Source: a virus. Taken from it: DNA of 30,937 nt. This document shows, one piece after another, positions 537 to 24,377 of this stretch; within the stretch, counting starts at the first letter, position 1; the number at the start of each line of letters is the position of its first letter. Position numbers and translations under genes: made by a program. The DNA is taken from positions 1 through 30,937 of IMG/VR virus record IMGVR_UViG_3300042295_000584; one strand, given 5' to 3'. Below the pieces are notes generated by a model. That model ran no database searches. It was not told the origin of the DNA and was given only the letters and a program-made list of their open reading frames with translations.

Positions 537-1805
537 TCAGCCGTTGGTGACGATCTTGCAGACTGCCGAATCGGTGATGAGGCCGAAGCCCCAAATGCTG
601 TACCACGCAAGGGCGTGCTCACGACCGAAGTCAAGAACGCCACCGTCACGGAGTTCCACCGGGAGGGAGATTGCATGACCGAATGCGTTGTCACCAAGCA
701 TAAGGGCTTCAAACTGCTCCGTGTCCGGGGTAACCGTGAAGTCTTCCGGCCAGTACTGATCCCAACCCGGGGTCGCAACTGCGTCCGGTTCGGCACCTGA
801 ACCCGGTGAATCTTCAATCGTGGCAGCGCTAACGTCAGGACCATCGGTCTGCGAGTCAGTACCACGCCATGCGGCAGGGGTACCATCGTCGTAGGCGGTG
901 TTGATGTAGTCAGACGGGTCACTCAGCGGACGACCAACCTGAGTCGTTTCGATGAAGACAACGTCATACAGACGACCGATTTCACCAAGCATGAAGTTGC
1001 CGGGAGCGGCGTACTTCGAAACTTCGATGAATTCGGGGGTGTCACGCAATTGACGGCTCTGCGACGGGTGGATGAAGCAGACATACGTCTCGCCAAGGCG
1101 AGGAATGTTCTTGCTTGAAAGTTCAAGCACTGCATCCTTGACCGCATGCGGGGTGAGGAAGAAGCCGCCGGAACCAATGGTACCGGAAGCGCCCTGAACG
1201 CCCTTGTTGTAGATGCCGTAGCCGGAGGTCAGGTCGGTCGGGGCCTTGTAGCCGTAAACCTTGCTGGTTGCCGACTGAAGCGTCTGACGTGCCTGCGTGT
1301 CCATGTAAAGCGCCATGTTACGTCCGAGAAGACGTGAAGCCGAAGCCATAACGTCATCGAACGAAGCGTTGAGAAGAAGTTCCGAAACGGCAATGGCGAA
1401 ACCATGCTCAGCAACCGTAATACGGTACTGCTGGGCGGTAATGCCATAGGTCTTCATACGGATACCTTCAACCAGCGGACCCGAAGGGATCGGAAGGTTG
1501 TTGTAACGCATGAAGTTAACCGTGAGACCCGGCATAACGCCGAGTTCGGTCTTCTTTACGGCAAACTGTTCGAACCGGAGAACCGGCATGGCCTGAAAGA
1601 GGATTTCCTTCGACCAAACAGTTTGAATCGCAGGACCCATGAGGGAGGTACCGGAAGTGATACCTGCGCCATAGCCACCTGTGATATTTGCACCTGCACC
1701 GGTTGTGTCATATCCGGCAGGAGCGCCGAATGCTGACCCGGCAACGCCACCAGCGACACGGTTTGTGCCGGTGATAGCAGACCCATCGGGGATCTGAAAA
1801 GCCAT
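537..1805 (-). CDS. Major capsid protein, N4-gp56-like (HK97 fold)
   Basis: 422 residues. It forms the icosahedral shell of the phage head. After a Gly-rich N-terminus (residues 1-60) comes the block WSKEILFQAMPVLRFEQFAV, then a segment with GLTVNFMRYNNLP and LVEGIRM, which is the usual start of N4-gp56 family capsid proteins (conserved E-x-F and F-x-R-Y features). The family commonly runs 300-420 residues, so this is at the long end. A region around residues 312-357 is acidic, Gly/Pro/Asp-rich and looks like an insertion before the C-terminal strand block. The start has a strong AGGAGG nine bases upstream, fitting a highly expressed protein. It directly follows the scaffold gene, the standard head-gene order. 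Family recognition is from pattern only. Confidence 0.9.
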   Translation of the reverse strand: MAFQIPDGSAITGTNRVAGGVAGSAFGAPAGYDTTGAGANITGGYGAGITSGTSLMGPAIQTVWSKEILFQAMPVLRFEQFAVKKTELGVMPGLTVNFMRYNNLPIPSGPLVEGIRMKTYGITAQQYRITVAEHGFAIAVSELLLNASFDDVMASASRLLGRNMALYMDTQARQTLQSATSKVYGYKAPTDLTSGYGIYNKGVQGASGTIGSGGFFLTPHAVKDAVLELSSKNIPRLGETYVCFIHPSQSRQLRDTPEFIEVSKYAAPGNFMLGEIGRLYDVVFIETTQVGRPLSDPSDYINTAYDDGTPAAWRGTDSQTDGPDVSAATIEDSPGSGAEPDAVATPGWDQYWPEDFTVTPDTEQFEALMLGDNAFGHAISLPVELRDGGVLDFGREHALAWYSIWGFGLITDSAVCKIVTNG

Positions 1806-1857
1806 TAGAAAGTCCTCCTATGGACTGGCTTGGTTAATAGGGTTGTACTTCTTCTGC

Positions 1858-2682
1858 TTAGCCTCGGTACTGACGGCCAGCAGCGTTCAGAAGGCTCGCC
1901 CGATACTTTTTATACGTTTCCATATCCATTGTCCTGATATCATCAGGACTGATCGATTCGTACGTCTGCATTTGCTCCAATGGCCCCACAGGAGGAGCAG
2001 TCGGTGCTGCTCCCCTCATAGCCTGCCGCTGAGTCGAAGCCGAAGCCTCAAATTGACCCATGATTGCGGCAGTTCGTGACTTCATCTCTTCGATGAAACC
2101 ATCGATTTCTTGCTCTGAGTTCCCAGTAATGAGATCTCGGAGTTCAGGAATGATGTACTCGGATTCTTGAGCAATCCGCTCGTTTCGGTACTGTTCAAGT
2201 TCAGTAAACCGACGCTCACGTTCAAAGACTGCCCGGTCCTGCTCGTAACGTCCTTCAAGTTCTGAAAAGCGGCTTGACCACTCTTCTTCCTTACGCTGAA
2301 GGAGATCACGAGTTTCCATTTTCTCTTCTTCCTCGCGACGAGCCTTTTCGGTTTCAGCCTCAAGTTCAGCAAGGCGAGCCGCTTCGGCTGCCTCACGTTC
2401 CTTTTGGATGGCCTTCAACTGCTCGTCCATGGTCTGAATGCGCCCGTAAAGTTTGTCTTTCTCTTCACGGCGAACTCGTTCAAGATCCTCGTCGGTATAG
2501 AAACGAGAATCCGCTGCGGTATGTGCGACGTTCTGTTCAACTTCCGGCAGGCTGTGCGCCAGCGGATTACCTGCAAGAGTTTCATTTTGAACTTCAGCCC
2601 ATGTGGCGGAAGTACGAACTGGCTCTTTGGGATCGGTTCCAACAAAGAAACCGTCGTTTGCTTCTGATACTTCCTGCGACAT
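1858..2682 (-). CDS. Capsid scaffolding protein
   Basis: 274 residues. Residues about 60-200 are highly charged (runs of Glu, Arg, Lys, with regular hydrophobics) and predict a long coiled coil, as in phage scaffolds that guide capsid assembly and then leave the head. The C-terminus carries a Pro/Ala-rich linker and a short conserved-looking helix (DIRTMDMETYKKYRASLL), the pattern seen at the capsid-binding end of actinophage scaffolds. The gene lies between portal and capsid, its usual place. The start at 2680-2682 has AGAAGGAAA about nine bases upstream. There is no protease signature, so this is a simple scaffold and not a protease-scaffold fusion. Confidence 0.88.
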   Translation of the reverse strand: MSQEVSEANDGFFVGTDPKEPVRTSATWAEVQNETLAGNPLAHSLPEVEQNVAHTAADSRFYTDEDLERVRREEKDKLYGRIQTMDEQLKAIQKEREAAEAARLAELEAETEKARREEEEKMETRDLLQRKEEEWSSRFSELEGRYEQDRAVFERERRFTELEQYRNERIAQESEYIIPELRDLITGNSEQEIDGFIEEMKSRTAAIMGQFEASASTQRQAMRGAAPTAPPVGPLEQMQTYESISPDDIRTMDMETYKKYRASLLNAAGRQYRG

Positions 2683-2739
2683 GAGATTTGTTTCCTTCTA
2701 CGGTGGTTTGTCCAATTACTGCTATTTGTTACTTATATA

Positions 2740-2771
2740 GATATACCATACTTTACGGCATATCATCGCAA
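2740..2771 (-). promoter_or_regulatory. Possible promoter for the scaffold-capsid operon
   Basis: Reading leftward, the 93-base gap between portal and scaffold holds an extended -10 (TGG then TATATC, 2740-2748), with TTGCGA at 2766-2771 as a poorly spaced (20 bases) -35. A start near 2733 would give a leader of about 50 bases with the Shine-Dalgarno of the scaffold gene. The A/T-rich gap stands out from the tightly packed neighbours. Weak evidence; placed by eye. Confidence 0.35.
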
Positions 2772-2775
2772 ACCC

Positions 2776-4425
2776 TTAACTCTCCTCAAAGGACTCACGC
2801 TGAGGAGGCTCTTGGCCGTATGCCCTCTGCATGATCTCCATTGCGAGATTCGGGTCTACACCGGGTGCCATTGTTCCGTCGCCCATGTCTTGACCGGGCA
2901 TCATCAATGGCTGACCATCGGGTGTCATACCCGTGGCCTGAATAATAAACTGAGAAGCCTGAGCCTGAATGAGGTTAAGAGCAGCCTGCTCCTTCATATC
3001 CTCCATCATCTCATCGTTAATCTCAGCGATCTTCTGCTCAGCGAACATATCGCCCAAGTCCCGAAGCGCTCCACGCTTGGACTCAAGACCCATAGACATA
3101 CGAGCCTGAATCTCATTGATCTTGATAAGCACGTCAACCGGAAGCGGTTCGGGCCAATGAACAGTGGTTTGATACGTCACGGGATCGGACGGGTCCAACT
3201 GCTCATATTGTCCCATTCGAAGGGGGACAGTAGCGACATACGGGTTATACATAAGAGCCTCAGGCTCCTTGATAGCCGCATGAAGAATGATCAGTTCATT
3301 TATCCGCTTAAATAGACGGGTGTACTGAGTCTTCTTAAGGCCATACTTCTGCATCAGAGGCTGATACTGGACAGCGAGAGCAGTTCCGCTTGTGTTGCTG
3401 ATCGGCTGCATCTGTCCGAGCGCCTGAGCAGGCACACCGGTCATTTCGTGCATGGCCTGCTTGATCAGTTCCATGTAACCCATAATCCCGGCGAAGTTGG
3501 TCTCCATCGACAGGTTTTGGATCTTTGCATCCTTGGAGCCGATGGTCCATACCTTCTTCGGACCCTTCTCAAGGTTCGATGCCTTAGCACCAATAATCAC
3601 GGTTACAGGAGAACCGTGATAGTTGATGATCTCGCTGACCTCAGTTGCCTTCTCGTTGAATTCACGGTTGAGGCTGATGATATCCGTGATATCCGCTAGG
3701 CCCCAAGGAGAGGAGGCTACAGGGATGTTCTGAGTGTAAGCGATCGGGATCTCACCGAGCGGATTTGGACGCTGGTCGATTCGCTCATCATTGATGTACT
3801 CCTCAATGAAGTCTTCAGTCAGGATCTCCGTATAGGTGAAGACCTGACGAGCGCCATCGGAAGCAGTGCCCCAAAACTTGTACTTTAGTTTGAAACGAAT
3901 CAAACGAGTACGGTCATGCGGGTGCCATTCGGGGAAACAGAAGGCTGGGTTGAGTGGGAGGATTCGGAACTTACCCTGTCGGGGACGACCGGAAGCATCT
4001 ACGAATGGTTCCTCGTAAGCAACCTTTACAAAAACATCCCCCGAGACCGACCCGTGCTGTCCCATTTCCCAAAGAGTTGTCTGCTTGTCGTTATCATGTT
4101 CCCAAGCACGCTTGAGTAGATACGGGACTACACCTTGAGTGGCCTCAGGAGAACCGAATTCTACGCCCTTACCAAAGGTGAAGTTCACCATATAATCGGC
4201 AAACGCCTTGACGTAGTTAAAAGAAAGTTGGGCTTCACCGAGTTCACGGCGGTACGCCCAGTGATGCCCTAGATACCAAGCCCAGTTGCTCGCATAGCGG
4301 TTAAGGCGAGGACCATGGACCTCAAACTCTTCGTCCGCAAGTTCCACCAACCCGAGCGGGCTAATGGCAATAGTAAGATCGCTCGCTGCCGCACGGTATG
4401 AGGGAGGATAAAAGTTAAGGGACAT
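2776..4425 (-). CDS. Portal protein
   Basis: 549 residues. Portal proteins form the dodecameric ring through which DNA is packaged and to which the tail attaches. The sequence fits the SPP1 gp6/HK97 portal type: an N-terminal helical part (NFTFGKGVEF), a beta-rich wing with conserved Trp/Pro segments, the stem and clip region (ITDIISLNREFNEKATEVSEIINYHGSPV), then GTALAVQYQPLMQKYGLKKTQ as the long crown helix. The C-terminal 70 residues are Gln/Met/Gly/Pro-rich and probably flexible. Length is within the family's range. It follows the 448-residue gene by 23 bases and precedes scaffold and capsid. No strong Shine-Dalgarno is visible before the ATG, so translation may depend on coupling to the upstream gene. 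Confidence 0.9.
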   Translation of the reverse strand: MSLNFYPPSYRAAASDLTIAISPLGLVELADEEFEVHGPRLNRYASNWAWYLGHHWAYRRELGEAQLSFNYVKAFADYMVNFTFGKGVEFGSPEATQGVVPYLLKRAWEHDNDKQTTLWEMGQHGSVSGDVFVKVAYEEPFVDASGRPRQGKFRILPLNPAFCFPEWHPHDRTRLIRFKLKYKFWGTASDGARQVFTYTEILTEDFIEEYINDERIDQRPNPLGEIPIAYTQNIPVASSPWGLADITDIISLNREFNEKATEVSEIINYHGSPVTVIIGAKASNLEKGPKKVWTIGSKDAKIQNLSMETNFAGIMGYMELIKQAMHEMTGVPAQALGQMQPISNTSGTALAVQYQPLMQKYGLKKTQYTRLFKRINELIILHAAIKEPEALMYNPYVATVPLRMGQYEQLDPSDPVTYQTTVHWPEPLPVDVLIKINEIQARMSMGLESKRGALRDLGDMFAEQKIAEINDEMMEDMKEQAALNLIQAQASQFIIQATGMTPDGQPLMMPGQDMGDGTMAPGVDPNLAMEIMQRAYGQEPPQRESFEES

Positions 4426-7069: not shown

Positions 7070-8677
7070 TCATCGAAACCAAGGCGCTTCAAAGGTTTCG
7101 ACGTAAGGCGTGGTGTCGTTGATACTCATAGCACAGGCGATAGCGAGTGAGTCCACGAAGTCATCATGGGAGTCACGCTCATCAGGCGGGGCCTGAATAA
7201 GCATGTAATTTCCCTTGATTACCTTCTCGGCATCTTCCATCTGCTGACGGAAACGCTTCCAAATGCGAGTACGACGGGCTTTGGAGTGGCCGGGGTACAC
7301 GATCATTCGGCGCTGGAGTAGGGCGATGAGATGCTTCCAGCGCTCGCTCTGTGTCTTGATATCGGACGATACGGGTATAACCTCACATCGGTGCTCCAAG
7401 AGCCTCTGAAGGCGCTCAGCGACGGCTGAACCCATACCCTGAGCATCTACGCCCACATAGGCGATGTTGTAGTTGTCCAAGAAGTCCACGATTTGGAAAT
7501 ACTGGTCTTCCCATTCCGTATTCTGAATCTCCAGCCAGTTGAGAACTCGGTGCTCTCGGAATCCGGCAGGGTCGGGATAATCCCAATCCACCCAGCAGAC
7601 CGTAACCACAGTGGAGTCCTTCACACGGGCGGGGTCAATACCGACCACTACCGGCGTACGATGCCATGACTTCACCAGTGGCATAGACGGGTCGGCCAAG
7701 AAGTCCAAGTCGTCCTCGGCTACTAGCATTCCTCGGTCAAGCATCCATTTGAGGTTGTAGGACATCTGAAACTCGTCAGAGTCTTCCCCGAGACGCATCT
7801 TTTCTTGAGTAATGAACTTGGCGTAGTACGGGTTGTACTTACCCACAGTCCGATAGTCATACTCAAAGTGATTCATACGACTACGCCTCTGAGTGCCTCG
7901 TCGCTTATTCAACTGGATGGCCTTGTAGAAGTCTCCCTTATGGAACGAAGGAGTTCCAATCTTTACCATGGTGCCTGCATAGGCAGCGAGCATGGGGTGG
8001 ATGGACTTACGGACCATCGTGTCATCGGCTTCCTGAGCCTCATCGATAACGACGAGATGGTACGACGCACCTTCGATCTTGGCTCGTGGGTTAGCAGTTG
8101 AACGACGGCAGATAGACCCTGAACGTAGTTTGATTACCTTGGACTTGCCGTCCACTCGCTCGTCTAGTTCGGGGTCATTGAGGAACTCCTGAGCATGCTC
8201 GGAGGTCAACTTATCCACAATGCGTCCATGAAGGAAGTCTGACTGGCTATCCACAGGTGCAAACACACCCACCCACATTCCCCGCTTGAATCGTTCCAAC
8301 ATTTCGAACGACATAGCCAATTTAGGGAGGATGACCATGCATCCAGCGACAATGACAGACAAAGTCTCGGACTTACCGCTCTGACGTGACCACAAGGCGG
8401 TGATTTCCTCACCGTCTACCATAACCAGTGACTCAACGATTCGATATGCCAACTGCCGCTGATATGGGCGAAGTTCAAGTCCAGCGAACTCTTCGCAGAA
8501 GATAATGATCCGCTTGATTAACTGATCAACAAAGTCGGCTGTCTCAGCATCTAAGCCGTAGTCCTCTTCTTCCTCTTCGATGTCTTCCCGATCATCATCT
8601 TCGACGTAGTGATTTTCTTCGATGTCGTCGGGGTTTCCTAGATCTTCGTAAGTTGGCACGACGACACTATAAAGCAT
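7070..8677 (-). CDS. terL: Terminase large subunit (ATPase and nuclease)
   Basis: 535 residues. It drives DNA into the prohead and cuts the concatemer. The ATPase domain has a Walker A variant SRQSGKSE (about 97-104) and Walker B VVIDEAQ (about 209-215). The C-terminal RNase H-like nuclease has VVVGIDPA (Asp348), YVGVDAQG (Asp411) and HDDFVDSLAIA (about 504-514) with the acidic metal ligands. An acidic N-terminal extension (residues 11-40, rich in Asp/Glu) precedes the domain. The start at 8675-8677 lacks a strong Shine-Dalgarno; a -10-like ATAT stretch sits just upstream, so it may be leaderless. No small terminase subunit is recognisable nearby; a small unrecognised gene may fill that role. 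Confidence 0.95.
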   Translation of the reverse strand: MLYSVVVPTYEDLGNPDDIEENHYVEDDDREDIEEEEEDYGLDAETADFVDQLIKRIIIFCEEFAGLELRPYQRQLAYRIVESLVMVDGEEITALWSRQSGKSETLSVIVAGCMVILPKLAMSFEMLERFKRGMWVGVFAPVDSQSDFLHGRIVDKLTSEHAQEFLNDPELDERVDGKSKVIKLRSGSICRRSTANPRAKIEGASYHLVVIDEAQEADDTMVRKSIHPMLAAYAGTMVKIGTPSFHKGDFYKAIQLNKRRGTQRRSRMNHFEYDYRTVGKYNPYYAKFITQEKMRLGEDSDEFQMSYNLKWMLDRGMLVAEDDLDFLADPSMPLVKSWHRTPVVVGIDPARVKDSTVVTVCWVDWDYPDPAGFREHRVLNWLEIQNTEWEDQYFQIVDFLDNYNIAYVGVDAQGMGSAVAERLQRLLEHRCEVIPVSSDIKTQSERWKHLIALLQRRMIVYPGHSKARRTRIWKRFRQQMEDAEKVIKGNYMLIQAPPDERDSHDDFVDSLAIACAMSINDTTPYVETFEAPWFR

Positions 8678-14930: not shown

Positions 14931-15206
14931 TTACTTCTCTGATTCCTCTTCGTTTCCGCTGAGGTACTCGGCACGCTCGTGATTCCACATGTCAGAGGTA
15001 TTTTCGTTCTCTAGACGGTGGACGGTACCCCACTGGTTCTCCATAGGCATGTCATCAGCCATATGGATGGAACCCTCGTTTTCAGGGTGCCCAACCATGA
15101 ACGACGACTGAGGCTCAAGAGCGCCCAGTACACGGTCCATAAGGTGGTTGGCAGCCGTCCAAGAGGCATTTCCAAGCCCTTGGTAGAAGTTAGCGCTGCG
15201 GCTCAC
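14931..15206 (-). CDS. Small accessory protein with a variant of the shared N-terminal tag
   Basis: 91 residues. Begins MSRSANFYQGLGNAS, which resembles the N-terminal tag of three other proteins (M-S-R-x-x-x-F-x-x-G-x-G). The remainder is polar and acidic, ending in GNEEESEK, with no recognised domain. The start overlaps the previous stop by four bases (ATGA), so it is coupled to the His-rich gene upstream. It is the last gene of the long leftward accessory cluster and meets the rightward group at the bidirectional hairpin. Function unknown. Confidence 0.7.
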   Translation of the reverse strand: MSRSANFYQGLGNASWTAANHLMDRVLGALEPQSSFMVGHPENEGSIHMADDMPMENQWGTVHRLENENTSDMWNHERAEYLSGNEEESEK

Positions 15207-15475
15207 ATCAAGCCCCGTCCGTGCATAGCGTCGTTGTATCCATGGTCTCCGTAACGCTCTTCCATCGTTTCAAACTCATCGTGGGAAGGTGAGTATGGTG
15301 AATACTCGTCGTTACGGTCTGCACGACCCTCATCCATGCGGGGGTCCATATGCATGGATTCGCCATAGATATTGGATGCGAAACCGAGATTATCAAGATC
15401 TTCAAGACGAGCGGCGTGGTGCTCACGGGTCACCTTACGATGCTCGTCGTGTTCTGAGTGATGTCCTCTAGCCAT
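15203..15475 (-). CDS. His/Asp-rich small accessory protein
   Basis: 90 residues, very rich in His, Asp, Glu, Arg and Tyr (MARGHHSEHDEHRKVTREHH). It has an N-terminal M-A-R start similar to one of the tagged proteins, but lacks the FxxG core. The middle contains ARLEDLDNLGFASNIYGESM. No hydrophobic core is evident, so it is likely disordered or metal-binding. The ATG is six bases after an extended -10 (TATCAT), a predicted leaderless start. Its stop is shared with the next gene (ATGA). Confidence 0.7.
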   Translation of the reverse strand: MARGHHSEHDEHRKVTREHHAARLEDLDNLGFASNIYGESMHMDPRMDEGRADRNDEYSPYSPSHDEFETMEERYGDHGYNDAMHGRGLM

Positions 15476-15481
15476 GTATAG

Positions 15482-15490
15482 ATGATACCA
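15482..15490 (-). promoter_or_regulatory. Extended -10 element six bases before a start codon
   Basis: Reading leftward: TGG then TATCAT, six bases, ATG 15475. The upstream gap (15491-15553) holds TATCGATAG and interleaved short inverted repeats (CAAAC/GTTTG, CTATC/GATAG) that could be operator sites. Confidence 0.55.
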
Positions 15491-15553
15491 CAGGGGTCTA
15501 TATCGATAGCACTATCAAACCATATGGGATAGTTTGAAAAGTGATCTATTTAC

Positions 15554-15757
15554 TCAATATTCCTCGGGATGACGGCGGTCAAGTTCCGTGTCATTGGAGA
15601 ACAACTGCATCTGCCCGCCCTCTCGTCGGAGACGGCGGCGTTCCTTAGCAGCAAGGGCGTTAGCGGTATAACCAGTGGCCTGAGCAAAGGCTGCAACCCG
15701 GTTAGTACGGGCTACTAAATTCTCAGGGCTGTTCTTGTCGTCGTTCTTCATCATCAT
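15554..15757 (-). CDS. Small basic protein with QMQLF motif
   Basis: 67 residues. The start is ATG-ATG-ATG at 15749-15757; AAGGAAG lies five bases upstream of the first. It is helix-rich with NRVAAFAQATGYTANALAAKERRRLRREGG in the middle, then QMQLF at 49-53 and a charged tail. It overlaps the 45-residue gene upstream by 35 bases in another frame. The basic helix followed by a QxxLF motif looks like a linear-motif protein that docks on a partner. Function unknown. Confidence 0.65.
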   Translation of the reverse strand: MMMKNDDKNSPENLVARTNRVAAFAQATGYTANALAAKERRRLRREGGQMQLFSNDTELDRRHPEEY

Positions 15758-15860
15758 TTTTCTTCCTTGGGGTCTCTTGACCCATATCAGACTTCTCTAA
15801 GCGCCAACGGAGATTCTCATCAAGTACATACTCTTCACGAATCTTCTTTTGCTCGCTCAT
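15723..15860 (-). CDS. Very small charged protein coupled to the upstream gene
   Basis: 45 residues (MSEQKKIREEYVLDENLRW...), highly charged and probably helical. The ATG at 15858-15860 shares bases with the TAA stop of the 278-residue gene (TAATG), and AAGGAT lies upstream, so it is likely translated. It overlaps the next gene by 35 bases. The short length and charged composition leave some doubt. Function unknown. Confidence 0.5.
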   Translation of the reverse strand: MSEQKKIREEYVLDENLRWRLEKSDMGQETPRKKNDDEERRQEQP

Positions 15861-16696
15861 TACTTATCCTTACGTCGGCCCTTTTTGGGTTCGAATACAA
15901 GATAGCGATGCTGCGGTGAAGTCTTTACTTCAGTGCTGTGCTCTACAGTACTAACCCGATCAGTATATGTGTCATCAAACACATGGGCGATTTCTGCGTC
16001 AGGCGGCAGAGAGGGACGATCAACGGTCATTTTGGTTGGACCCAAGTGCTCCATACCGGGCAGAGGAAACTGTACGTTATTGGTATTGTTTCGCTCAGAT
16101 CGCTTGTATAGAGGTTTACCCACATGGGCTACCAATTCGTGTGTCTGAGCCTTCTCACGCCAATGTGCGGGTGACTTAGGGTCTGACATGACATGTTCGC
16201 TCCACGTCATTAGATTCTCAGGAGCGGCACGGAAAGACACCGAACCGGAGTCTTCCATCTCGTTTAGATAGGGGACATGTTCCCCACGAGCGTTGGCGTT
16301 GTGAGCCGAGTTCGGACGATGCATATCAGAGTAGTTGTAGTGGTCATTAGCATCGTCGTCACGCCATGTGGTTTGATCGGTCTGATACTCCCCAAAAGTG
16401 GGGTTTAGGGCAGAACTACCGGTCATTCGGTAGGGGTATGACCTATCACGGCGACGACGGCTGTAACGGGTTGCTTCATCAGCAGATCGTCTTGAACCGA
16501 CGTGGAATCCGCTGTAGTCCCCATACATACCAATATCGGCAGTTTGATGAGGCGAACCCTTCTTTAGAGTCGAATGCCATACAGTCGCATCGCTTTGCGC
16601 CCAATTGGCAGGGTCATAGTGATCGGTTTCCGGCTCTTTGGCAGGACCGGGATCAAACAACTGAAGTTGTTCGCTGAGATTATGTTCCTGACCCAT
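15860..16696 (-). CDS. Possible ADP-ribosyltransferase-like accessory protein with N-terminal QLQLF motif
   Basis: 278 residues. Residues 10-14 are QLQLF near the N-terminus. Residues 39-79 (VWHSTLKKG... then GFHVGSRRSADEATRYS) resemble the H-x-T...G-F-H-x-G...A pattern of ADP-ribosyltransferase-like folds found in phage accessory proteins; a possible S-x-S strand with acidic neighbours lies near 141-160 (NEMEDSGSVSF). Residues 209-215 read QFPLPGM, echoing the C-terminal QLPGM of its two neighbours. Its C-terminus is basic (FEPKKGRRKDK). The enzyme assignment is weak and needs structure prediction. The start overlaps the preceding stop as TGATG. Possibly a virion-delivered or host-modifying protein. 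Confidence 0.7.
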   Translation of the reverse strand: MGQEHNLSEQLQLFDPGPAKEPETDHYDPANWAQSDATVWHSTLKKGSPHQTADIGMYGDYSGFHVGSRRSADEATRYSRRRRDRSYPYRMTGSSALNPTFGEYQTDQTTWRDDDANDHYNYSDMHRPNSAHNANARGEHVPYLNEMEDSGSVSFRAAPENLMTWSEHVMSDPKSPAHWREKAQTHELVAHVGKPLYKRSERNNTNNVQFPLPGMEHLGPTKMTVDRPSLPPDAEIAHVFDDTYTDRVSTVEHSTEVKTSPQHRYLVFEPKKGRRKDK

Positions 16697-17397
16697 CAGT
16701 CTTCCATACCCGGGAGTTGTGGATCTTCCCTCTTTTTCGTTTTCGCTTCTGCCCTTTCCGCCTTTATGCTGGAAGAGTTGCTCTCCAAAAGGCGGATACC
16801 TTCAGATACTTCCTCATTAGAATGAGTTTTCCAAGTTCCCGGTGAAGACCTGCTGAAGTATGAAAAATCATCGTCCCCCCAACCAACACTCATTGTATTT
16901 TTCTTCATTTCAGGATTATCAGGATGAGGTTTAACCCCGTATCTACGATTAATGGCTTTAGATATACGGGAACCGTCCTGAGTGAGAGTTTTATCTGCAT
17001 AGGGAATAGACCCATGAGCATGAACTGAGGTACCAATAATTCCTTTTAGAAGGCGTGATTGCTGCCTTGGGGAAAGACTTTCTCCATCCTCGTCAATAAT
17101 TCCGTCTGTATCCATGGCAAGCCAAGAAACGTGATCGACGGCATCATTCATAGTGCCTCCGGTCCATTTCATCTGTCCCGTATCTCTATCTACTCCTACA
17201 CCGTGCTCAATGTATCCTGAATTAATTAGATCTTGTTCTTGTTTATTACGGATTTTTTGGCTACCATTAATCCTCATCGTTGCTTTAGGGACAAATTTCC
17301 CTTTTTTATAAATACTAGCCACGGCACTAGTAATGTTTGAATCAGGATCGTGTGCCGTCTCAAACATGTAATCGTTGAACTGTTCTCCTAGAGCCAT
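16696..17397 (-). CDS. Accessory protein with N-terminal LGxQF and C-terminal QLPGMED tags
   Basis: 233 residues, no recognised family. It begins MALGEQFNDYMFE and ends REDPQLPGMED; both ends are nearly identical to those of the next upstream gene although the interiors differ. The interior has a mixed alpha/beta pattern (YIEHGVGVDRDTGQMKW, HVSWLAMDTDGIIDED, GTSVHAHGSI). The start overlaps the upstream stop as TGATG, and the stop overlaps the downstream start the same way, so the three genes form a chain. End conservation with divergent middle suggests shared docking or targeting functions rather than a shared enzyme. Function unknown. Confidence 0.75.
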   Translation of the reverse strand: MALGEQFNDYMFETAHDPDSNITSAVASIYKKGKFVPKATMRINGSQKIRNKQEQDLINSGYIEHGVGVDRDTGQMKWTGGTMNDAVDHVSWLAMDTDGIIDEDGESLSPRQQSRLLKGIIGTSVHAHGSIPYADKTLTQDGSRISKAINRRYGVKPHPDNPEMKKNTMSVGWGDDDFSYFSRSSPGTWKTHSNEEVSEGIRLLESNSSSIKAERAEAKTKKREDPQLPGMED

Positions 17398-19040
17398 CAG
17401 TCTTCCATGCCCGGTAGTTGGGGTTGGGTCCAGCCACCGTTCTGTTCACGATTACGGTTACGGCGGGCATCGATATAGGCAGAACGAGCCTGCTTACCAA
17501 CGTCGTATAGACCCTGTTCCCTAAGATGCTTCATAAGGCTGGGAGTAGTAGTAACCATATGACCGAGGGCCATCGTGTTTACAGAGTCAGCATGCTCTTT
17601 ATTTTCGTAATCTCGTACCTGATAGCGTGAGTCGTTGAGGGGCATACCTAGGGATTTAGAAAGTTCCTCACGAGAAGGATATTGGTCACGACCATTGTCC
17701 CCAGTACGAGCAGCAATCCGTGATGCAGTGTATAGGGCTTTGTGGGTCTTATTCTTCCACTGGGCATGATCTACGCCGTAACCACGTTTCATAGATCTAG
17801 TAGGATCGTTAGGATCGTGCAGTACGTCCTCATACATATCACCCATCCCGCCATGGGGAGTGGTGGCGTATCGATCACGTCTACCGTCAGCAAGACCTTC
17901 TTCTAACGGGTCTGCAAAGCCATATCTTTCTATATTCTTTGTAAAGCGCTTTCTATGAGAGTAACGATCATTTACCATAGATTCATCCCGCTGATGACCT
18001 ATCTCATGTACTAAAGTACCTTGATCGATATGGGGGGTTTTTGTGTACTTGTCCTTCTCAGGGATCGTTACTTCCTCAACCGATTCCGGTTCGAAACGTG
18101 AATGCATCTTTGACGTACTAGCAGCATCCTTGGTGTAACTGTATCCCTTTGTAAAATCAAAGGTATCACCAGCATGAACCTTATTTGAAGACTTTCCTTT
18201 GCCCGGAAACAGATTGGGAACGAAACCAAGCCCTCGCAAGTTCTCAACATTGCCTTCAGCCTTTTTAACAGCATCGCTGTTATCTAGTACTTCCCCTGTT
18301 CTAGAGTGCTGCCAGCGAATATTGGCCTTAGAAGGAACCCCATATTGTCCATGTGAGCGTGTGCCGTCTTCTTTGGTGTGATAACCGTATTTCTTAACAG
18401 TCCCCTCAGTATGACTAAGAAGATCTAATGAGGCATCCTCTTGATCCCTATTGATGTTCTTGTCGTACCAATCCCAAAACTTTGGGTTAGCAATGGGACG
18501 ATCAGAAGGAGTGGTTTTCAGTCCCTTACTCTCAGGGATTGTTTCCCATTTACCCCTTTTCTCCTTACCGATCATAATTTTATCGCTGTAATCTTCAGCG
18601 AAACCACCACCACGATCACGACGAGGATTCAAATAAGCGCTTACCTTAGTGTTTTCAATTTCTCTAATGGGGGTTTCAGAATTAACTAGACTGTTTCTAA
18701 GCAGTTCAGCATCTGACCTCGCCATATTGTCAGAAATCTTGACGTTAGAACCTTGTTTAACACGGCTTTTATAAGCGTCAATATCTGTCAAGCCAAGAGC
18801 CACATTGGATGCGGTTTCCCTGCGCTCTAGCGGCACTAGGGGATCGTCTTTAGTACCCGTAGCCGTAGCGGGATGAAAGAGAATACCCTGATGACCCGAC
18901 AATTCATCATCAGGGGCATTGGTCTTAGTAGTAGGACTTACACGAGGAACGCCGCTAACCCGTTCACGAGTCCATGACTTGGTTTCTCCTGATTCAGGAT
19001 CTTCCCAATATGTATCTTCGAACTGTTTGCCTAAAGCCAT
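17397..19040 (-). CDS. Large accessory protein with a zinc-metalloprotease motif (HEIGH) and terminal tags
   Basis: 547 residues, the largest product of the accessory block. It begins MALGKQFEDTYWED and ends QLPGMED. QGILF lies at 51-55, in a conserved-looking stretch with FHP...DPLVP..RR..A...LGLTDIDAY that recurs in actinophage proteins. Residues 343-349 read LVHEIGH (His345, Glu346, His349), the HExxH zinc motif, followed by EEGLADG near 380-386, where the third ligand or glutamate would be expected; this supports a metallopeptidase-type active site. The domain around it is otherwise unrecognised. It starts six bases after an extended -10 (CATAAT). Possible roles are cleavage of virion or host proteins. 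Confidence is good for the motif, low for the function. Confidence 0.8.
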   Translation of the reverse strand: MALGKQFEDTYWEDPESGETKSWTRERVSGVPRVSPTTKTNAPDDELSGHQGILFHPATATGTKDDPLVPLERRETASNVALGLTDIDAYKSRVKQGSNVKISDNMARSDAELLRNSLVNSETPIREIENTKVSAYLNPRRDRGGGFAEDYSDKIMIGKEKRGKWETIPESKGLKTTPSDRPIANPKFWDWYDKNINRDQEDASLDLLSHTEGTVKKYGYHTKEDGTRSHGQYGVPSKANIRWQHSRTGEVLDNSDAVKKAEGNVENLRGLGFVPNLFPGKGKSSNKVHAGDTFDFTKGYSYTKDAASTSKMHSRFEPESVEEVTIPEKDKYTKTPHIDQGTLVHEIGHQRDESMVNDRYSHRKRFTKNIERYGFADPLEEGLADGRRDRYATTPHGGMGDMYEDVLHDPNDPTRSMKRGYGVDHAQWKNKTHKALYTASRIAARTGDNGRDQYPSREELSKSLGMPLNDSRYQVRDYENKEHADSVNTMALGHMVTTTPSLMKHLREQGLYDVGKQARSAYIDARRNRNREQNGGWTQPQLPGMED

Positions 19041-19046
19041 ACCTCA

Positions 19047-19055
19047 ATTATGCCA
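19047..19055 (-). promoter_or_regulatory. Extended -10 element before the metalloprotease-like gene
   Basis: Reading leftward: TGG then CATAAT, six bases (TGAGGT), ATG 19040. The six-base gap resembles a Shine-Dalgarno (GAGG) but is too close to the start for normal use. Confidence 0.6.
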
Positions 19056-19057
19056 TA

Positions 19058-19615
19058 TTAGGTGTAATTGACTAGCCAGCGGTTAATAGCCTCTTCAAAG
19101 TCCATTAATTGATTTACATAGACGTTGTAGCAAGCGGTCCAAAATCTAGTGTTGTTGCTAGGGTCCACGGAGTCTTTTTCCCAATATTTGGCATCTCGCC
19201 TAAATTTACCCTTCCCAATAACACCTAGGACGTAGGCATCGGTGTAATGCTCTGCCTTCCCCTTCAGGTCCCTAGAAGGTCTGTATAGGCTCACAAAGGT
19301 GAACATGTTGGCCTGCTGGTGGTCAATGTTGTATGCAGGCAACGTGCAGTCGTAAAAAGGCTGGGGAACAACTGTTCGGTCTTTGGTTTTGATCTCCATA
19401 GTCCTACCGTCGGGAAATACGAGATCATGGGTAGTTTTGTATTCTCGGTCAAAAGGCACGCCGTTCTGCTGTAGAACGTGCTCAACGACTAGTTCACCTA
19501 GACACCCGACAGCGTTGGCAGCGGTACCCCTGTGTGAGTTCTTTAAAATGGGCATAGCGTCGGCACGACGCTGGGCTTCTTGCTGTAATTCATCAGTAAG
19601 TGGCACATGGATCAT
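19058..19615 (-). CDS. PD-(D/E)xK-type nuclease-like protein
   Basis: 185 residues. Active-site pattern of the PD-(D/E)xK superfamily: GCLGELVVEHVLQQNG (Glu41), THDLVFPDG (Asp64), then MEIKTK (Glu74, Lys76), followed by a beta-rich region (VPQPFYDCTLPAYNI, ANMFTFVSL). The fold occurs in restriction endonucleases, Holliday junction resolvases and phage DNA-processing nucleases. Substrate is unclear; a role in DNA degradation or recombination is plausible. The start is ATG 19613-19615 with a promoter ending six bases upstream, so probably leaderless. It stands alone, with its stop just upstream of the next extended -10. Confidence 0.8.
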   Translation of the reverse strand: MIHVPLTDELQQEAQRRADAMPILKNSHRGTAANAVGCLGELVVEHVLQQNGVPFDREYKTTHDLVFPDGRTMEIKTKDRTVVPQPFYDCTLPAYNIDHQQANMFTFVSLYRPSRDLKGKAEHYTDAYVLGVIGKGKFRRDAKYWEKDSVDPSNNTRFWTACYNVYVNQLMDFEEAINRWLVNYT

Positions 19616-19621
19616 ACGGAC

Positions 19622-19649
19622 ACTTTAGCCATCTGTCGGCAAAGCGCAA
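19622..19649 (-). promoter_or_regulatory. Promoter of the nuclease gene
   Basis: Reading leftward: TTGCGC (19644-19649), 16 bases, TAAAGT (19622-19627), six bases, ATG 19615. Confidence 0.55.
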
Positions 19650-19710
19650 GTAGTCCGAGAAGAAAAAGCCCTACAAACCGAAAAAAATGAAGAATAAGCC
19701 CTGATATGCT

Positions 19711-20238
19711 TTATTCGTAAGATCCACGAGCGTTTCTGTCGTAATCTTCCTGATTCGGCTTATAGGTCTCATCGACCCATTCTTTCGCAGAAGACTTGAT
19801 GTAGTCAGGATTGTGACGTACAGCACCCGGAATGTAGATTGCGTCAAGAGGAGCCTTCTGACCACGAGCATTCGTCTTGTAAGCCGTAGCGTAGAAGTAG
19901 TTTGTGTCAGGATCAGCCTCGGAGTGAGTACTGGTCTCATGTGGGATCGGGTACTCAACGTGTACCGAAGGAGTCACCTGATGATGTAGGACCGGGTAGT
20001 CCTCTTCATCAAACTTGATGTTCTCACCCTGAAACTTGTCGTGTGCGTGACCCGTAGCAGCAAGACCGATAGAAGCCTTGTAGGAACCCGGACCACCCAT
20101 CATTTCTTCCATAGAGTCCCAAAGATGTCCACCAAGTGCTTCACCAGCAATTCGATCCTGTTCACGCTTAGACATGATTCCCTCTAGAGAATGATCGGGG
20201 TTACCATGTCCTGAATCGAAGTGATCTCGTCTACTCAT
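19711..20238 (-). CDS. Accessory protein with MSRRDHFDSGHG tag
   Basis: 175 residues. The N-terminus (MSRRDHFDSGHGNPDHSLEG) carries the shared tag. After it come a helix with GGHLWDSMEEMMGG, a beta-rich middle (YPVLHHQVTPSVHVEYPIPHE) and NYFYATAYKTNARGQKAPLDAIYIPG. The C-terminus is acidic and Tyr/Asn-rich (KPNQEDYDRNARGSYE). No recognised domain. The ATG is six bases after GATACT, preceded by TGA (extended -10). It stands alone between gaps of about 70-90 bases, so it is likely expressed as a single gene. Function unknown; tagged proteins are discussed in the findings. Confidence 0.75.
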   Translation of the reverse strand: MSRRDHFDSGHGNPDHSLEGIMSKREQDRIAGEALGGHLWDSMEEMMGGPGSYKASIGLAATGHAHDKFQGENIKFDEEDYPVLHHQVTPSVHVEYPIPHETSTHSEADPDTNYFYATAYKTNARGQKAPLDAIYIPGAVRHNPDYIKSSAKEWVDETYKPNQEDYDRNARGSYE

Positions 20239-20244
20239 ATATCT

Positions 20245-20253
20245 AGTATCTCA
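20245..20253 (-). promoter_or_regulatory. Extended -10 element before the MSRRDHFDSGHG gene
   Basis: Reading leftward: TGA then GATACT, six bases, ATG 20238. No convincing -35. Confidence 0.5.
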
Positions 20254-20309
20254 CACTGACTGCTAAACGCTCAGACCCTAGGCCCGCCCTTAGTGCTCAA
20301 GAGGGAGAG

Positions 20310-20714
20310 TTAGGGTACCCAGTTAACAGGGACCCATGCTTTGGGGTCGATATCTTCTTGAGAATACACTCGGTGATGTCCGTTCCACAGAAGTCCCCGT
20401 GATGTATGAACACCAGTATCGTGATGCATGATATGTCCGTAACCGAGATCATCTTTGTGAACTAGATCTACAGGTTGCCTTACCCCATGAGCCGCTATGT
20501 CTTCGTAGAGGCCATCCTCGTGGGATTCAGTGAGTTTCTCCCTCTTTACTGAGTCCCTAACTTCTGCTGGGCTGATATGGCTCTCATACTGCCCGTCTTC
20601 ATCGTTCTCATATCCATAAGCGTCACCGGGGTAGAACTCCTTAGGATTCGCCAAATCCCCCGCTCGCTCAAACATTGTGAGTTGATTGGGGTTGATAACG
20701 TGTTTAGCACCCAT
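20310..20714 (-). CDS. ParB-like (sulfiredoxin-fold) domain protein with QLTMF motif
   Basis: 134 residues from the ATG at 20712-20714 (MGAKHVINPN); GGAG nine bases upstream supports it over a longer form that would begin at 20783. Residues 11-15 read QLTMF. Residues about 65-130 resemble the ParB/Srx fold: GLYEDIAAHGVRQPVDLVHKDD, then LLWNGHHRVYSQEDIDPKAWVPV (G-H-H-R in place of the usual G-x-R-R box). In phages this fold serves as a nucleotide-binding or DNA-nicking module in several unrelated proteins, so no partition role should be assumed. It is the last gene of the operon that starts at 21592. Confidence 0.75.
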   Translation of the reverse strand: MGAKHVINPNQLTMFERAGDLANPKEFYPGDAYGYENDEDGQYESHISPAEVRDSVKREKLTESHEDGLYEDIAAHGVRQPVDLVHKDDLGYGHIMHHDTGVHTSRGLLWNGHHRVYSQEDIDPKAWVPVNWVP

Positions 20715-20814
20715 TTTCGTACACTCCACGGCTTTTCTGTGAGACAACAAACCACTGGAATATTTTGAGAATAAACTCAGCATCTCGCTCTAAGAGTTCT
20801 TCCTTAGCACCCAT
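20704..20814 (-). CDS. Very small protein (36 residues) between the GNAT-like and ParB-like genes
   Basis: 36 residues (MGAKEELLERDAEFILKIFQW...). The ATG at 20812-20814 overlaps the TAA stop of the GNAT-like gene (TAATG), with AGAAGGAAG upstream. It begins with the same M-G-A-K as the next gene, and its stop overlaps that gene's start by 11 bases. A predicted amphipathic helix is followed by FVVSQKS. It is short, but the coupling at both ends argues for translation. It may be a leader peptide that couples translation of the ParB-like gene. Unrecognised. Confidence 0.5.
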   Translation of the reverse strand: MGAKEELLERDAEFILKIFQWFVVSQKSRGVYENGC

Positions 20815-21146
20815 TACTTCTTCCTTCTCGGTAAAGCGCCGCCTACTGACCTCGCCCAAGCGTCCCCTTCATCGGTTCGGTCTGCACTGTGCTTAGGTTT
20901 AGGTACCCGTGCGTTCTCTGCCGCCAATTGGTGACCATGTTCCCACATCGCCGTCGCTAGGCCCTTCCGGGCATATTGTGGGCTGACATCGATATTTCTA
21001 ACTGACTTGGATGTCCATAGCATGTGCCCGGCGTATTTATCCCCAAGGCGAGCAGTGATTCGATGTTGATACTTTGAGGCACCCGTATCTTGGGTGTCGT
21101 ACTCAATATCAAACTGATCCCCGTGGAGATTATCTGAAGCCGCCAT
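20814..21146 (-). CDS. GNAT-like acetyltransferase-fold protein
   Basis: 110 residues. Residues 52-72 (NIDVSPQYARKGLATAMWEHG) match the acetyl-CoA-binding motif A of GNAT enzymes (V-x-P-x-Y-x-R-x-G-x-A). The C-terminal segment HSADRTDEGDAWARSVGG is a pattern found in small actinophage proteins of this fold. At 110 residues it is shorter than classical GNATs and lacks a clear N-terminal acceptor lobe, so it may be a degenerate or minimal member. Its start overlaps the previous stop as TAATG. The acceptor substrate is unknown. Confidence 0.75.
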   Translation of the reverse strand: MAASDNLHGDQFDIEYDTQDTGASKYQHRITARLGDKYAGHMLWTSKSVRNIDVSPQYARKGLATAMWEHGHQLAAENARVPKPKHSADRTDEGDAWARSVGGALPRRKK

Positions 21147-21592
21147 TAGTAATCATCCTCAGCAAGTTGTTCTTGCCACGTCTTAAACCTTTGAGGAGAA
21201 CCAATTTCTTTATGATCTTGAAATGCTAACTCCACGGCCTGCTTACGACTGCTTACACCACCTTCATGTACGGAAGGGGAATGCCGAATGTTTCCTTTAC
21301 CAATTGTGTAGGCATTCTTTGATCCATAAGGGTCGGCACCGTTTGCCGTCCAAACCCATTTGCCTCGGGTGTATTTACCGTGTGCTACACGACGAGGCTC
21401 TTCACGCTTACGCTCAACGTATCCGACAGGTTCCCCGTCTACAAGTATATTGTGAGCACGCTCACCCTCATTATGGATTTCGGGGTCAACGATAGCCTCA
21501 GAAATCTTGTGCTTGGGGATCTCAAAAGCAGGCTGGGAGACATTGTGGTGCTCCATACCATGACCTGCATCGAAGTGCTCTGTGCGTGACAT
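21146..21592 (-). CDS. Accessory protein with MSRTEHFDAGHGM tag
   Basis: 148 residues. Begins MSRTEHFDAGHGMEHHN, the best representative of the tag. The rest resembles the 101-residue tagged gene at 22965: a segment with an acidic patch, then V-D-G-E-P-V-G-Y-V-E-R (against G-N-E-K-I-G-S-I-K-R), a Trp-rich W-V-W-T stretch and a C-terminal helix with A-V-E-L-A-F-Q-D-H-K. This indicates a small beta-rich domain with a final helix, shared by the two tagged paralogues. The ATG is six bases after an extended -10 (CATAAT), and it leads the operon 21592-20310. Function unknown. Confidence 0.78.
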   Translation of the reverse strand: MSRTEHFDAGHGMEHHNVSQPAFEIPKHKISEAIVDPEIHNEGERAHNILVDGEPVGYVERKREEPRRVAHGKYTRGKWVWTANGADPYGSKNAYTIGKGNIRHSPSVHEGGVSSRKQAVELAFQDHKEIGSPQRFKTWQEQLAEDDY

Positions 21593-21598
21593 ATATCA

Positions 21599-21607
21599 AT
21601 TATGACA
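21599..21607 (-). promoter_or_regulatory. Extended -10 element before the operon 21592-20310
   Basis: Reading leftward: TGT then CATAAT, six bases, ATG 21592. It follows a terminator at 21615-21640 by a few bases, so the unit is terminator, promoter, gene without space for a leader. Confidence 0.6.
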
Positions 21608-21614
21608 CATATAC

Positions 21615-21640
21615 AAAAGACCGGCCCCTAAGAGCCGGTC
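21615..21640 (-). terminator. Rho-independent terminator of the operon 22576-21662
   Basis: GACCGGC and GCCGGTC form a 7-bp stem, extendable by wobble pairs, around an eight-base loop; leftward it runs into CTTTTG. The T-run overlaps the following promoter region. Confidence 0.7.
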
Positions 21641-21661
21641 CTTGCATTAGGAAAATGAGTT

Positions 21662-22036
21662 TTAGTAACTCCAACCCTTGCGGCGGGCCACCTTATCTGC
21701 TTGATCTTCAGTGTTCCCAGCGCCGGGTGCGGGATACTTATTCATCATGGCAGACTTCTTTGTAGAAGCGGCATTGATGCGATCGATGTCGATGCCCTTT
21801 GAATTGTTATAGTCACGGATTTCGTTGTTCCGTTTACCCTGCTGACGAGCACTGGCGACAGCATTTGGGTCCCGCTTATCTTGGGGAGTACCTACCCCAC
21901 CCTTAAGGGGGGTTACGGGAGGCTGGCTACCCGGGCGTCGGGGTAGACCACCCATCAAACTACCGGTATTACCGCCGGAGTTCGCCATATAACCATGATC
22001 CCCACCACCGGGGCGAAAACGTCCGAACATACCCAT
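21662..22036 (-). CDS. Gly/Pro/Asn-rich accessory protein
   Basis: 124 residues from ATG 22034-22036 (MGMFGRFRPGGG), placed one base after the stop of the zinc-ribbon gene. It is Gly/Pro-rich and largely disordered (GGGDHGYMANSGGNTGSLMGG, LPRRPGSQPPVT), with a basic helical segment (ASARQQGKRNNEIRDYNNSKG) and a C-terminal helix ending in RKGWSY. No hydrophobic core, no recognised family. A flexible virion or assembly protein is possible. Last gene of the operon ended by the terminator at 21615-21640. Confidence 0.65.
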   Translation of the reverse strand: MGMFGRFRPGGGDHGYMANSGGNTGSLMGGLPRRPGSQPPVTPLKGGVGTPQDKRDPNAVASARQQGKRNNEIRDYNNSKGIDIDRINAASTKKSAMMNKYPAPGAGNTEDQADKVARRKGWSY

Positions 22037-22037
22037 T

Positions 22038-22301
22038 TCAACCCATCCTAAACATGTTCTGAAGAGCGTCAGGCCCCGGAGAATCGGTAGCGGGACGTGG
22101 GGGATTGCTGGTGTGCCCACAGTCGTAGCAGTCGTGCCCACCGGCTGAAGATACGTCGGTGTTGTAGGAACCGCAGTTATTACAACTAGGACCGTGCATT
22201 CCGTCCATAGCGGCCTTTGAGGTAGGGGTTACCATCCCAGCGGCAACAGCGCCCTGAGGGGACATACCTGCACCCTTATGAAAGTGTTCCCGCCTAGCCA
22301 T
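22038..22301 (-). CDS. Zinc-ribbon accessory protein with a variant tag
   Basis: 87 residues. Begins MARREHFHKGAGM, a variant of the shared tag. A zinc ribbon is visible near residues 40-62: CNNCGSYNTDVSSAGGHDCYDCGH (two CxxC knuckles). It was probably acquired as an adapter for DNA or RNA. The tail is Pro-rich (NPPRPATDSPGPDALQNMFRMG). It starts two bases after the stop of the 90-residue gene, and precedes the Gly/Pro-rich gene by one base, so all three are coupled. Function unknown. Confidence 0.75.
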   Translation of the reverse strand: MARREHFHKGAGMSPQGAVAAGMVTPTSKAAMDGMHGPSCNNCGSYNTDVSSAGGHDCYDCGHTSNPPRPATDSPGPDALQNMFRMG

Positions 22302-22303
22302 AA

Positions 22304-22576
22304 TCAGTATCCCAGCGATCCACTATCACGGCGGCGCTGATGAACAGAGAGAGCAGCGGGAGAAACCGTATCAAGGTAACTCTCATACTTCCTGTTAGCC
22401 TCACGAACAGCAGGTACCTGATGCGGGTCTAGCATGTTGCCTTCGTCATCTTCAGAGCCGCTGCTATCAATTGAGTATTGATAGTTCTGCCACATGCGAT
22501 CTGCCATGCGAGCCTCGTGTGCCGCACGACCGATCTGTCGTCCGGGGTGGTACCCGGTGTCTTGTCCTTGTGCCAT
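22304..22576 (-). CDS. Hypothetical helical accessory protein
   Basis: 90 residues from the ATG 22574-22576 (MAQGQDTGYHPGRQIGR), chosen because an extended -10 ends six bases upstream; an upstream ATG would add 22 residues antisense to that promoter. Helix-rich, with RAAHEARMADRMWQNYQYS and VPAVREANRKYESYLDT; acidic centre; basic end. It leads a three-gene coupled operon. Function unknown. Confidence 0.7.
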   Translation of the reverse strand: MAQGQDTGYHPGRQIGRAAHEARMADRMWQNYQYSIDSSGSEDDEGNMLDPHQVPAVREANRKYESYLDTVSPAALSVHQRRRDSGSLGY

Positions 22577-22582
22577 ACACCA

Positions 22583-22591
22583 ATTATGACA
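22583..22591 (-). promoter_or_regulatory. Extended -10 element before operon 22576-21662
   Basis: Reading leftward: TGT then CATAAT, six bases, ATG 22576. It lies downstream of the tRNA-Tyr gene. Confidence 0.6.
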
Positions 22592-22659
22592 CATTTTCGC
22601 CATTTGGAAGAAAATCAACATTTTTAGTGTGATTTTAGTCACAGGTGATTCATTTATCG

Positions 22660-22746
22660 TGGTGGGAGTGGACGGAATCGAACCGCCGAAGCCAAAAGCG
22701 CCTGATTTACAGTCAGGTGAGACTAACCAACAGTCCCCTCACTCCC
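22660..22746 (-). tRNA. tRNA-Tyr (anticodon GTA)
   Basis: Leftward, an 87-base cloverleaf: acceptor GGGAGTG/CACTCCC, D-arm containing GGTTAGT, anticodon stem CCTGA/TCAGG with loop CTGTAAA (anticodon GTA), a long variable arm of about 13 bases typical of bacterial tRNA-Tyr, T-arm with TTCGATT, discriminator A and an encoded CCA end. It is 16 bases downstream of the 69-residue gene and probably processed from that transcript. Phage tRNAs usually offset codon differences to the host; only Tyr is present here. All major structural elements are intact, so it looks functional. Confidence 0.92.
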
Positions 22747-22762
22747 GAGAGGACGTAATGTA

Positions 22763-22972
22763 TCAGACCTGCGGGGGTCGAAGAGCATCCATAGCGTCAA
22801 AATGCTCTTGCGCCTTCCAATAGTTCTTCCGAACCATCTCCATAGACCGGCCAACATCAGGATGATCGGCACCAAAAAGGGCCTTAAGTTCCTTGTTGCG
22901 CTTCAGATGATGGTCAGTAATAGCCTGATGCTCCCACGCCTTAGCGTGGTGGTAATCGTAGTCCTCAGCCAT
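22763..22972 (-). CDS. Small helical accessory protein
   Basis: 69 residues from ATG 22970-22972 (MAEDYDYHHAKAW), which overlaps the end of the tagged gene by eight bases; a longer frame upstream is antisense-like and unsupported. It is a His/Lys/Glu-rich two-helix protein (AWEHQAITDHHLKRNKELKALFG and VGRSMEMVRKNYWKAQEHFDAM). Helical packing residues are regular, so a small stable bundle is likely. It lies just upstream of the tRNA gene. Function unknown. Confidence 0.68.
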   Translation of the reverse strand: MAEDYDYHHAKAWEHQAITDHHLKRNKELKALFGADHPDVGRSMEMVRKNYWKAQEHFDAMDALRPPQV

Positions 22973-23270
22973 CAGCCTGATCCTCGTTCTTTTTAGCGAT
23001 GTGCTTGTTCCAAACAGCGACAGAGGCTGCACGACGGGTTTCGTGATAATCGCCAGCACCCTTCCACGCCCCATACCAACCATCAGGAGTGTCGATGTTA
23101 CGTTTGATGGAGCCGATTTTCTCGTTACCAACGTGTACGGCTAGTTCGTCGTCAACAGGAATCTCTTCCCCGCCATGCTCGTAGGTGTTCGGTTTGTAAC
23201 GAAACCGGCCCGGAGTAGTGTTGTGCTCAGGCATATTATGGCCTGCATCAAAATGCTCTGTGCGTGACAT
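22965..23270 (-). CDS. Accessory protein with MSRTEHFDAGHNM tag
   Basis: 101 residues. The N-terminus (MSRTEHFDAGHNMPEHN) matches the first 13 residues of the 148-residue gene with a single change. After about 40 residues a small beta domain follows (LAVHVGNEKIGSIKRNID, GWYGAWKG) with a helix (RRAASVAVWNKHIAKK) also seen in the 148-residue paralogue. The ATG is six bases after GATAAT with TGA ahead of it. The 30-bp sequence upstream of the -10 is repeated before the 143-residue gene at 23758. Function unknown. Confidence 0.75.
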   Translation of the reverse strand: MSRTEHFDAGHNMPEHNTTPGRFRYKPNTYEHGGEEIPVDDELAVHVGNEKIGSIKRNIDTPDGWYGAWKGAGDYHETRRAASVAVWNKHIAKKNEDQADG

Positions 23271-23276
23271 CCCTCA

Positions 23277-23285
23277 ATTATCTCA
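23277..23285 (-). promoter_or_regulatory. Extended -10 element before the tagged gene 22965-23270
   Basis: Reading leftward: TGA then GATAAT, six bases, ATG 23270. It overlaps the left end of the 30-bp direct repeat at 23281-23310. Confidence 0.6.
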
Positions 23286-23798: not shown

Positions 23799-24045
23799 GG
23801 GGCGGCGACTGAGCACTTGCATGGCCTATGCCTCAGCGCTCACCACTACTTGGCACTTCCCCCATGCCCCATTTCCCCCAAAATTCTAAGTCCCCCTCCA
23901 CTACTCCACATGCCCTATAGCCCATGGTCCACATGTGTTCCCTACGCCCGGACCCCGTGTGCGGCGAACTAAAGGGGCGGGGGTTATCGCAAAAAACCCT
24001 TATTTTATATGACTTTTTTGAGGGTGCGTGATCGAGGGGGCGCAT

Positions 24046-24300: not shown

Positions 24301-24313
24301 GGTGTGCAGCAAA

Positions 24314-24334: not shown

Positions 24335-24377
24335 GTTGTGCATGCATTGCAATGCTGCCGATTCATACGAATGCACA

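Follow-up and report, generated by a model that had tools for sequence, protein, structure and literature searches.

The window analysed here, 30,937 bases long, comes from an uncultivated phage (IMG/VR) and encodes a transglycosylase and an amidase besides terminase, portal and capsid genes (Table 1). The terminase has 47-49% identity to those of the Streptomyces myophages BRock and GiJojo and, because of these Streptomyces phage relatives, the host of the window phage is likely to be actinobacterial. Between 14931 and 23270 lies a series of small minus-strand genes, several of whose products begin with one of three recurring peptides, referred to here as tags A, B and C. The tag A motif, M-[SA]-R-x-[ED]-H-F-x-x-G-x-[GN], occurs on four window proteins (starts at 20238, 21592, 22301 and 23270). 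A tRNA-Tyr gene is located within the tagged gene cluster at 22660-22746. Positions 23988-24402, without clear genes, contain AT-rich 39-nt repeats and perfect 26-nt inverted arms, and a 47-nt repeat recurs between 24924 and 30177 at four intergenic sites (24924, 26948, 28236 and 30131; 70-94% identity to a reference copy).

Table 1. Tagged genes, motif-bearing genes and landmark features of the window.
Feature	Position	Strand	Remarks
Major capsid protein, scaffold-like coiled coil, SPP1-type portal	537..4425	-	
Terminase large subunit	7070..8677	-	Landmark for head genes
91-aa protein	14931..15206	-	Doubtful tag VSRSANFYQGLG; profile score 5.1
Tag C protein	15860..16696	-	MGQEHNLSEQLQLF
N-terminus MALGEQF	16696..17397	-	C-terminal QLPGMED
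N-terminus MALGKQF..TYWED	17397..19040	-	HEIGH zincin-type motif; C-terminal QLPGMED
Tag A protein, 175 aa	19711..20238	-	Tag MSRRDHFDSGHGN at 20200-20238
Tag C protein	20310..20714	-	MGAKHVINPNQLTMF; body ParB-like by motif
Tag C-like protein	20814..21146	-	MAASDNLHGDQF; body acetyltransferase-like, below Pfam cut-off
Tag A protein, 148 aa	21146..21592	-	Tag MSRTEHFDAGHGM at 21554-21592
TGTCATAATTG	21597..21607	-	4 nt upstream of start 21592; near copies at 23275-23285 and 19045-19055
Zinc-ribbon protein, 87 aa	22038..22301	-	Tag A MARREHFHKGAGM at 22263-22301
Tag B protein	22304..22576	-	MAQGQDTGYHPGRQIGR at 22526-22576
TGTCATAATTG	22581..22591	-	Directly upstream of tag B gene
Tag A protein, 101 aa	22965..23270	-	Tag MSRTEHFDAGHNM at 23232-23270; orthologue in G001

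The first-pass annotation had read a shared N-terminal peptide on five proteins of the window, and all five N-termini that it quoted were confirmed on re-reading. The fifth protein, starting at 15206 with a GTG codon and the N-terminus VSRSANFYQGLGN, is unsupported as a carrier on its own, as its profile score lies within the noise. The tagged window proteins are short (87-175 aa), and a Pfam scan of all except 22965-23270 gave at most one weak match region each. The ParB match is weak, the zincin and other bodies of effector type are recognised by motif only, and acetyltransferase bodies exceed the Pfam cut-off in contig L182. BLASTP detects no similarity between the bodies of 21146-21592 and 22965-23270, which might still share a very remote fold. 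In the predicted structure of the 175-aa tag A protein residues 1-22 have low confidence and the body is poor (mean pLDDT 50); an ART-like protein reached a mean pLDDT of 36. Foldseek with the predicted structures gave no significant match, and comparison with PHROGs gave no useful family match. The tag of the 175-aa protein is kept in its orthologues in G001, G006, G007 and G009, and a scan for further relatives of its body returned five loci only, all in already known contigs. A remote homologue in G021 (20525-20995) has a different N-terminus, MNPEHFGKQFN, which looks like tag A blended with the GKQF-type N-terminus. Unrelated proteins (16696-17397 and 17397-19040 in the window, and others in G009, G006 and G018) end in QLPGMED, QLRFDL, QMQFDI or PKLPGLEDY, and these endings are possibly a C-terminal short motif.

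On a tag A profile the four window carriers score 32-37, compared with 11 for the best of 226,345 internal positions in the same proteins, three real internal copies aside. The seeds of this profile include the four carriers themselves, and an untrained comparison of N-termini is therefore the fairer test. For this, 954 proteins encoded by the window and by 32 further contigs were grouped by clustering their bodies with the N-terminal 22 residues (16 in the shortest) cut off, and the opening 18 residues were compared across groups. Ninety-three cross-family pairs scored 45 or more, against 1, 4 and 0 in three draws of random internal 18-mers. The three largest N-terminal clusters, with 16, 16 and 15 members, correspond to tags C, A and B, respectively; a few members of the tag C cluster and one of the tag A cluster look accidental. 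The consensus is RxEHFxxGxG for tag A, RGxDTxxHPxRxVxR for tag B (MxRGxDTxxHPxRxVxR in the cluster) and NLxxxQLxxF for tag C (MAAxxNLxxxQLxxF in the cluster). At least three N-terminal tag classes were thus found without prior assumption, so that the single tag described initially is real but is only one of several. C-termini show far less cross-family sharing than N-termini, the QLPGMED-like motif excepted.

Tags and bodies are not fixed to one another. The zinc-ribbon body at 22038-22301 has 93% identity over 70 residues to a protein of G006 (25460-25747), whereas the N-termini differ, being MARREHFHKGAGM (tag A) in the window and MARGQDTGNHPGRRVSR (tag B) in G006; the zinc-ribbon body of G010 likewise has tag B. 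The DNA of the window and that of G006 have CTTCCAAATGGCGAAAATGTGTCATAATTG in common, and the 5' flank with TGTCATAATTG also precedes tag B and the zinc ribbon in G006. After this common flank, G006 continues with tag B joined to the zinc ribbon and the window with tag B joined to a different body, the zinc ribbon following as the next gene with tag A. A body homologous to 14931-15206 bears tag B in G010, and the ParB-like family has tag A in one protein and tag C in others. Similarity is weak in another candidate for a swap (G011 9809 and G022 8965). The portability suggested by the first-pass annotation is thus borne out, with one tag on different bodies and one body with different tags. The full-length paralogy that it had named as a reason to abandon the idea is rejected for most pairs. 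These swaps point to tags that are mutually interchangeable.

When the motif was searched for in related uncultivated phages, as had been proposed at the outset, it was found on at least 13 body families. An exact tag A DNA pattern retrieved 11 stretches from IMG/VR and a looser pattern 26, several of them by chance. Genuine tag A carriers occur in the window's relatives, in two contigs of 70-84 kb, in a group of contigs reaching 95 kb whose carrier has ~208 aa, and in contigs with a carrier of ~240 aa. The tag B pattern retrieved 60 stretches, frequently with two to four adjacent tagged genes. A stretch of G016 (15195-16595), GRIKHFMGG, resembles tag A and was not counted. Eight scattered matches to the tag A pattern turned up among bacterial genomes, in unrelated organisms, about the number estimated for chance, and these give no evidence of prophages. 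The phage group with tagged proteins probably infects actinobacteria. A tblastn search of cultured phages with the tags returned no match, the queries of 20-28 aa having little power.

Contrary to the first-pass annotation, the tag is not strictly N-terminal. Tag A is found at the C-terminus in G020 and G023 and internally at residue 54 of 78 in G010, residue 28 of 262 in L150 and residue 19 of 118 in L182, which suggests that the motif serves docking and is not cut off as a leader. A search for an S78 prohead protease, in which the controls worked, found none in 10 related records; the search for an S77 protease was made without a control that gave a signal. Given the internal and C-terminal copies and the S78 result, the protein probably keeps its motif, and removal by a prohead protease seems unlikely.

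Among 12 tag A genes the same codon was used at 163 of 427 identical residues, where 162.8 were expected from codon usage. With the residues kept and the silent sites randomised, selection acts on the peptide. This largely refutes the explanation by a recombination cassette, in which promoter and start region spread by copying as a shared 5' end and the peptide is functionless. That explanation could account for TGTGTCATAATTG, common upstream of several tagged starts, and for the 21146/22965 pair, in which the tags, unlike those of other pairs, are almost alike in codons and look like a recent copy of a 5' end. It is opposed further by the copies away from the N-terminus and by the 15860-16696 family, in which tag C is kept at only ~30% whole-protein identity, and we regard it as very improbable. 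Equally slight is the chance that the N-terminal sequence serves to tune translation initiation or protein turnover. None of 13 tag A starts has a Shine-Dalgarno sequence, so that initiation may be leaderless, which would suit such a role, but conservation of amino acids extends to residue 12 and the motif also occurs inside and at the end of proteins. The sequence TG[N]SATAATTG stands 4-5 nt ahead of four start codons that have no Shine-Dalgarno sequence (19045-19055, 21597-21607, 22581-22591 and 23275-23285), a spacing that would suit leaderless transcripts.

We favour, with slightly better than even confidence, the explanation that the tags are a portable docking motif that would load small effectors into the phage head for delivery with the DNA. 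The scaffold, portal or capsid protein of the head would serve as the binding site for the tags, packaged carriers would go on to be injected, and the three tags would be alternative addresses to one compartment, with the motif probably remaining on the protein after loading. Judged from gene context, the kinds of bodies and a structural homologue in Rhodococcus phage E3, capsid loading fits best. The effector-like bodies are acetyltransferases, ParB-like proteins and proteins that are zincin-type by motif. The interval that separates the terminase and capsid genes contains the tagged genes found in G024, except for one located shortly past it, and all of the tag A and tag B genes found in G025 and G016; one tagged gene adjoins the portal gene in G018 and one immediately follows the terminase gene in G011. 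Context tests gave P values of 0.0085-0.25 per contig, under a relaxed definition and for contigs chosen after the fact, and such modest values make the head-gene context supportive, not decisive. Against capsid loading, the tagged cluster of the window's own clade is not in the terminase-capsid interval but past the lysis genes, at a distance of ~6 kb from the terminase gene, tag B genes adjoin replication genes in G022 and L177, and no tags were found in 26 proteins of the cultured relative GiJojo, mostly from head and neighbouring genes.

The link to E3 comes from the ~240-aa tag A carrier of L182, which matches E3 gp205 (E 5e-38) and also gp99 of Bxz1-like mycobacteriophages. E3 gp205 is annotated as "structural protein", a label that we take to come from virion proteomics. 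It joins a gp99-like domain and a DUF7178 domain in a single chain, and the cultured mycobacteriophage Alice has these two domains as separate proteins, gp99 and gp98, both of which start with an AREQF[DE]MLxPW stretch. Acetyltransferase-like gp115 of Alice has the same N-terminal stretch with Y replacing F. In an untrained comparison covering two thirds of the Alice genome, N-terminal pairs of gp98, gp99 and gp115 yield scores of 70-85, whereas the best random pairs reach 36-47. A packaging address would most simply explain why the peptide is copied when a virion protein is split. A solo acetyltransferase of Alice, named as gp113, has been proposed by Iyer et al. 2017 on other grounds to be deployed in the capsid (PMC5512222). 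Two adjacent small proteins of Alice, gp102 and gp103 (L201:45905-46135 and 46138-46359), have RGI[QE]GHPELPGPP near both N-termini and may be plain paralogues.

Two further explanations give the tags a binding role of another kind. The tags could dock proteins to an intracellular phage or host machine, such as the sliding clamp, RNA polymerase or a phage hub, and not to the capsid. Tag C (QLxLF/QLxMF) is close to the bacterial clamp-binding consensus, some tagged clusters are close to replication genes, and the position of the motif along the chain varies. However, tags A and B are unlike clamp motifs, though tag A alternates with B on some bodies and with C on others, several lineages have tagged genes inside head operons, and the E3 homologue is annotated as structural; we consider intracellular docking unlikely. 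The annotation of gp205 and the occurrence of the genes among head genes would also suit minor structural or decoration proteins that the tag attaches to the particle and that are not delivered into the cell. This is rather less probable still, because many of the bodies look enzymatic or nucleic-acid-related and close relatives differ widely in body content.

Returning to loading of the head, a broader and more tentative possibility, which we rate below even, is that large multi-domain injected proteins have been replaced in actinobacterial phages by sets of single-domain effectors, each with one of several interchangeable head tags. Splitting of a chain would then require the tag to be copied, and tags would be freely exchanged. 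If loading is correct, a search for short motifs would give access to the injected protein arsenal of many phages with unannotated small genes, and selected proteins could be directed into actinophage heads with the tags as tools. The idea is testable now, as Alice is cultured on Mycobacterium smegmatis.

Several known systems resemble this arrangement. Polyvalent proteins (Iyer et al. 2017, PMC5512222) have ParB-like, acetyltransferase, zincin and ADP-ribosyltransferase domains, kinds of domain that tagged bodies appear to share, and their delivery in the capsid has been proposed. The proteins described here are mostly single-domain and individually tagged, and the two or more domains that define a polyvalent protein were not found in the tagged window proteins scanned; a shared N-terminal tag is not described in the part of that account cited here (PMC5512222). 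MuF polymorphic toxins of temperate phages share the head-associated delivery of variable effector domains that we propose, but they deliver by way of a whole MuF domain, unlike short tags, and no Pfam match to this domain was found among the tagged proteins scanned. E3 gp205 and gp98, gp99 and gp115 of the Bxz1-like Alice have homologous bodies, and Alice likewise has one tag, AREQ[FY][DE]MLxPW, on different bodies. The tag sequence is another one, those phages are larger (about 142-153 kb), and E3 has an annotated prohead protease. T-even internal proteins are highly diverse and have only the conserved capsid targeting sequence (CTS) in common (PMC3012670). The tags differ from the T4 CTS in having several classes instead of one, in their internal or C-terminal copies and, by appearance, in their sequences; no S78 prohead protease was found in the 10 related records. 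They are like it in being a short conserved terminal peptide on otherwise unrelated small proteins and, by analogy and without evidence of common descent, they most likely work in the way that the T4 capsid targeting sequence does.
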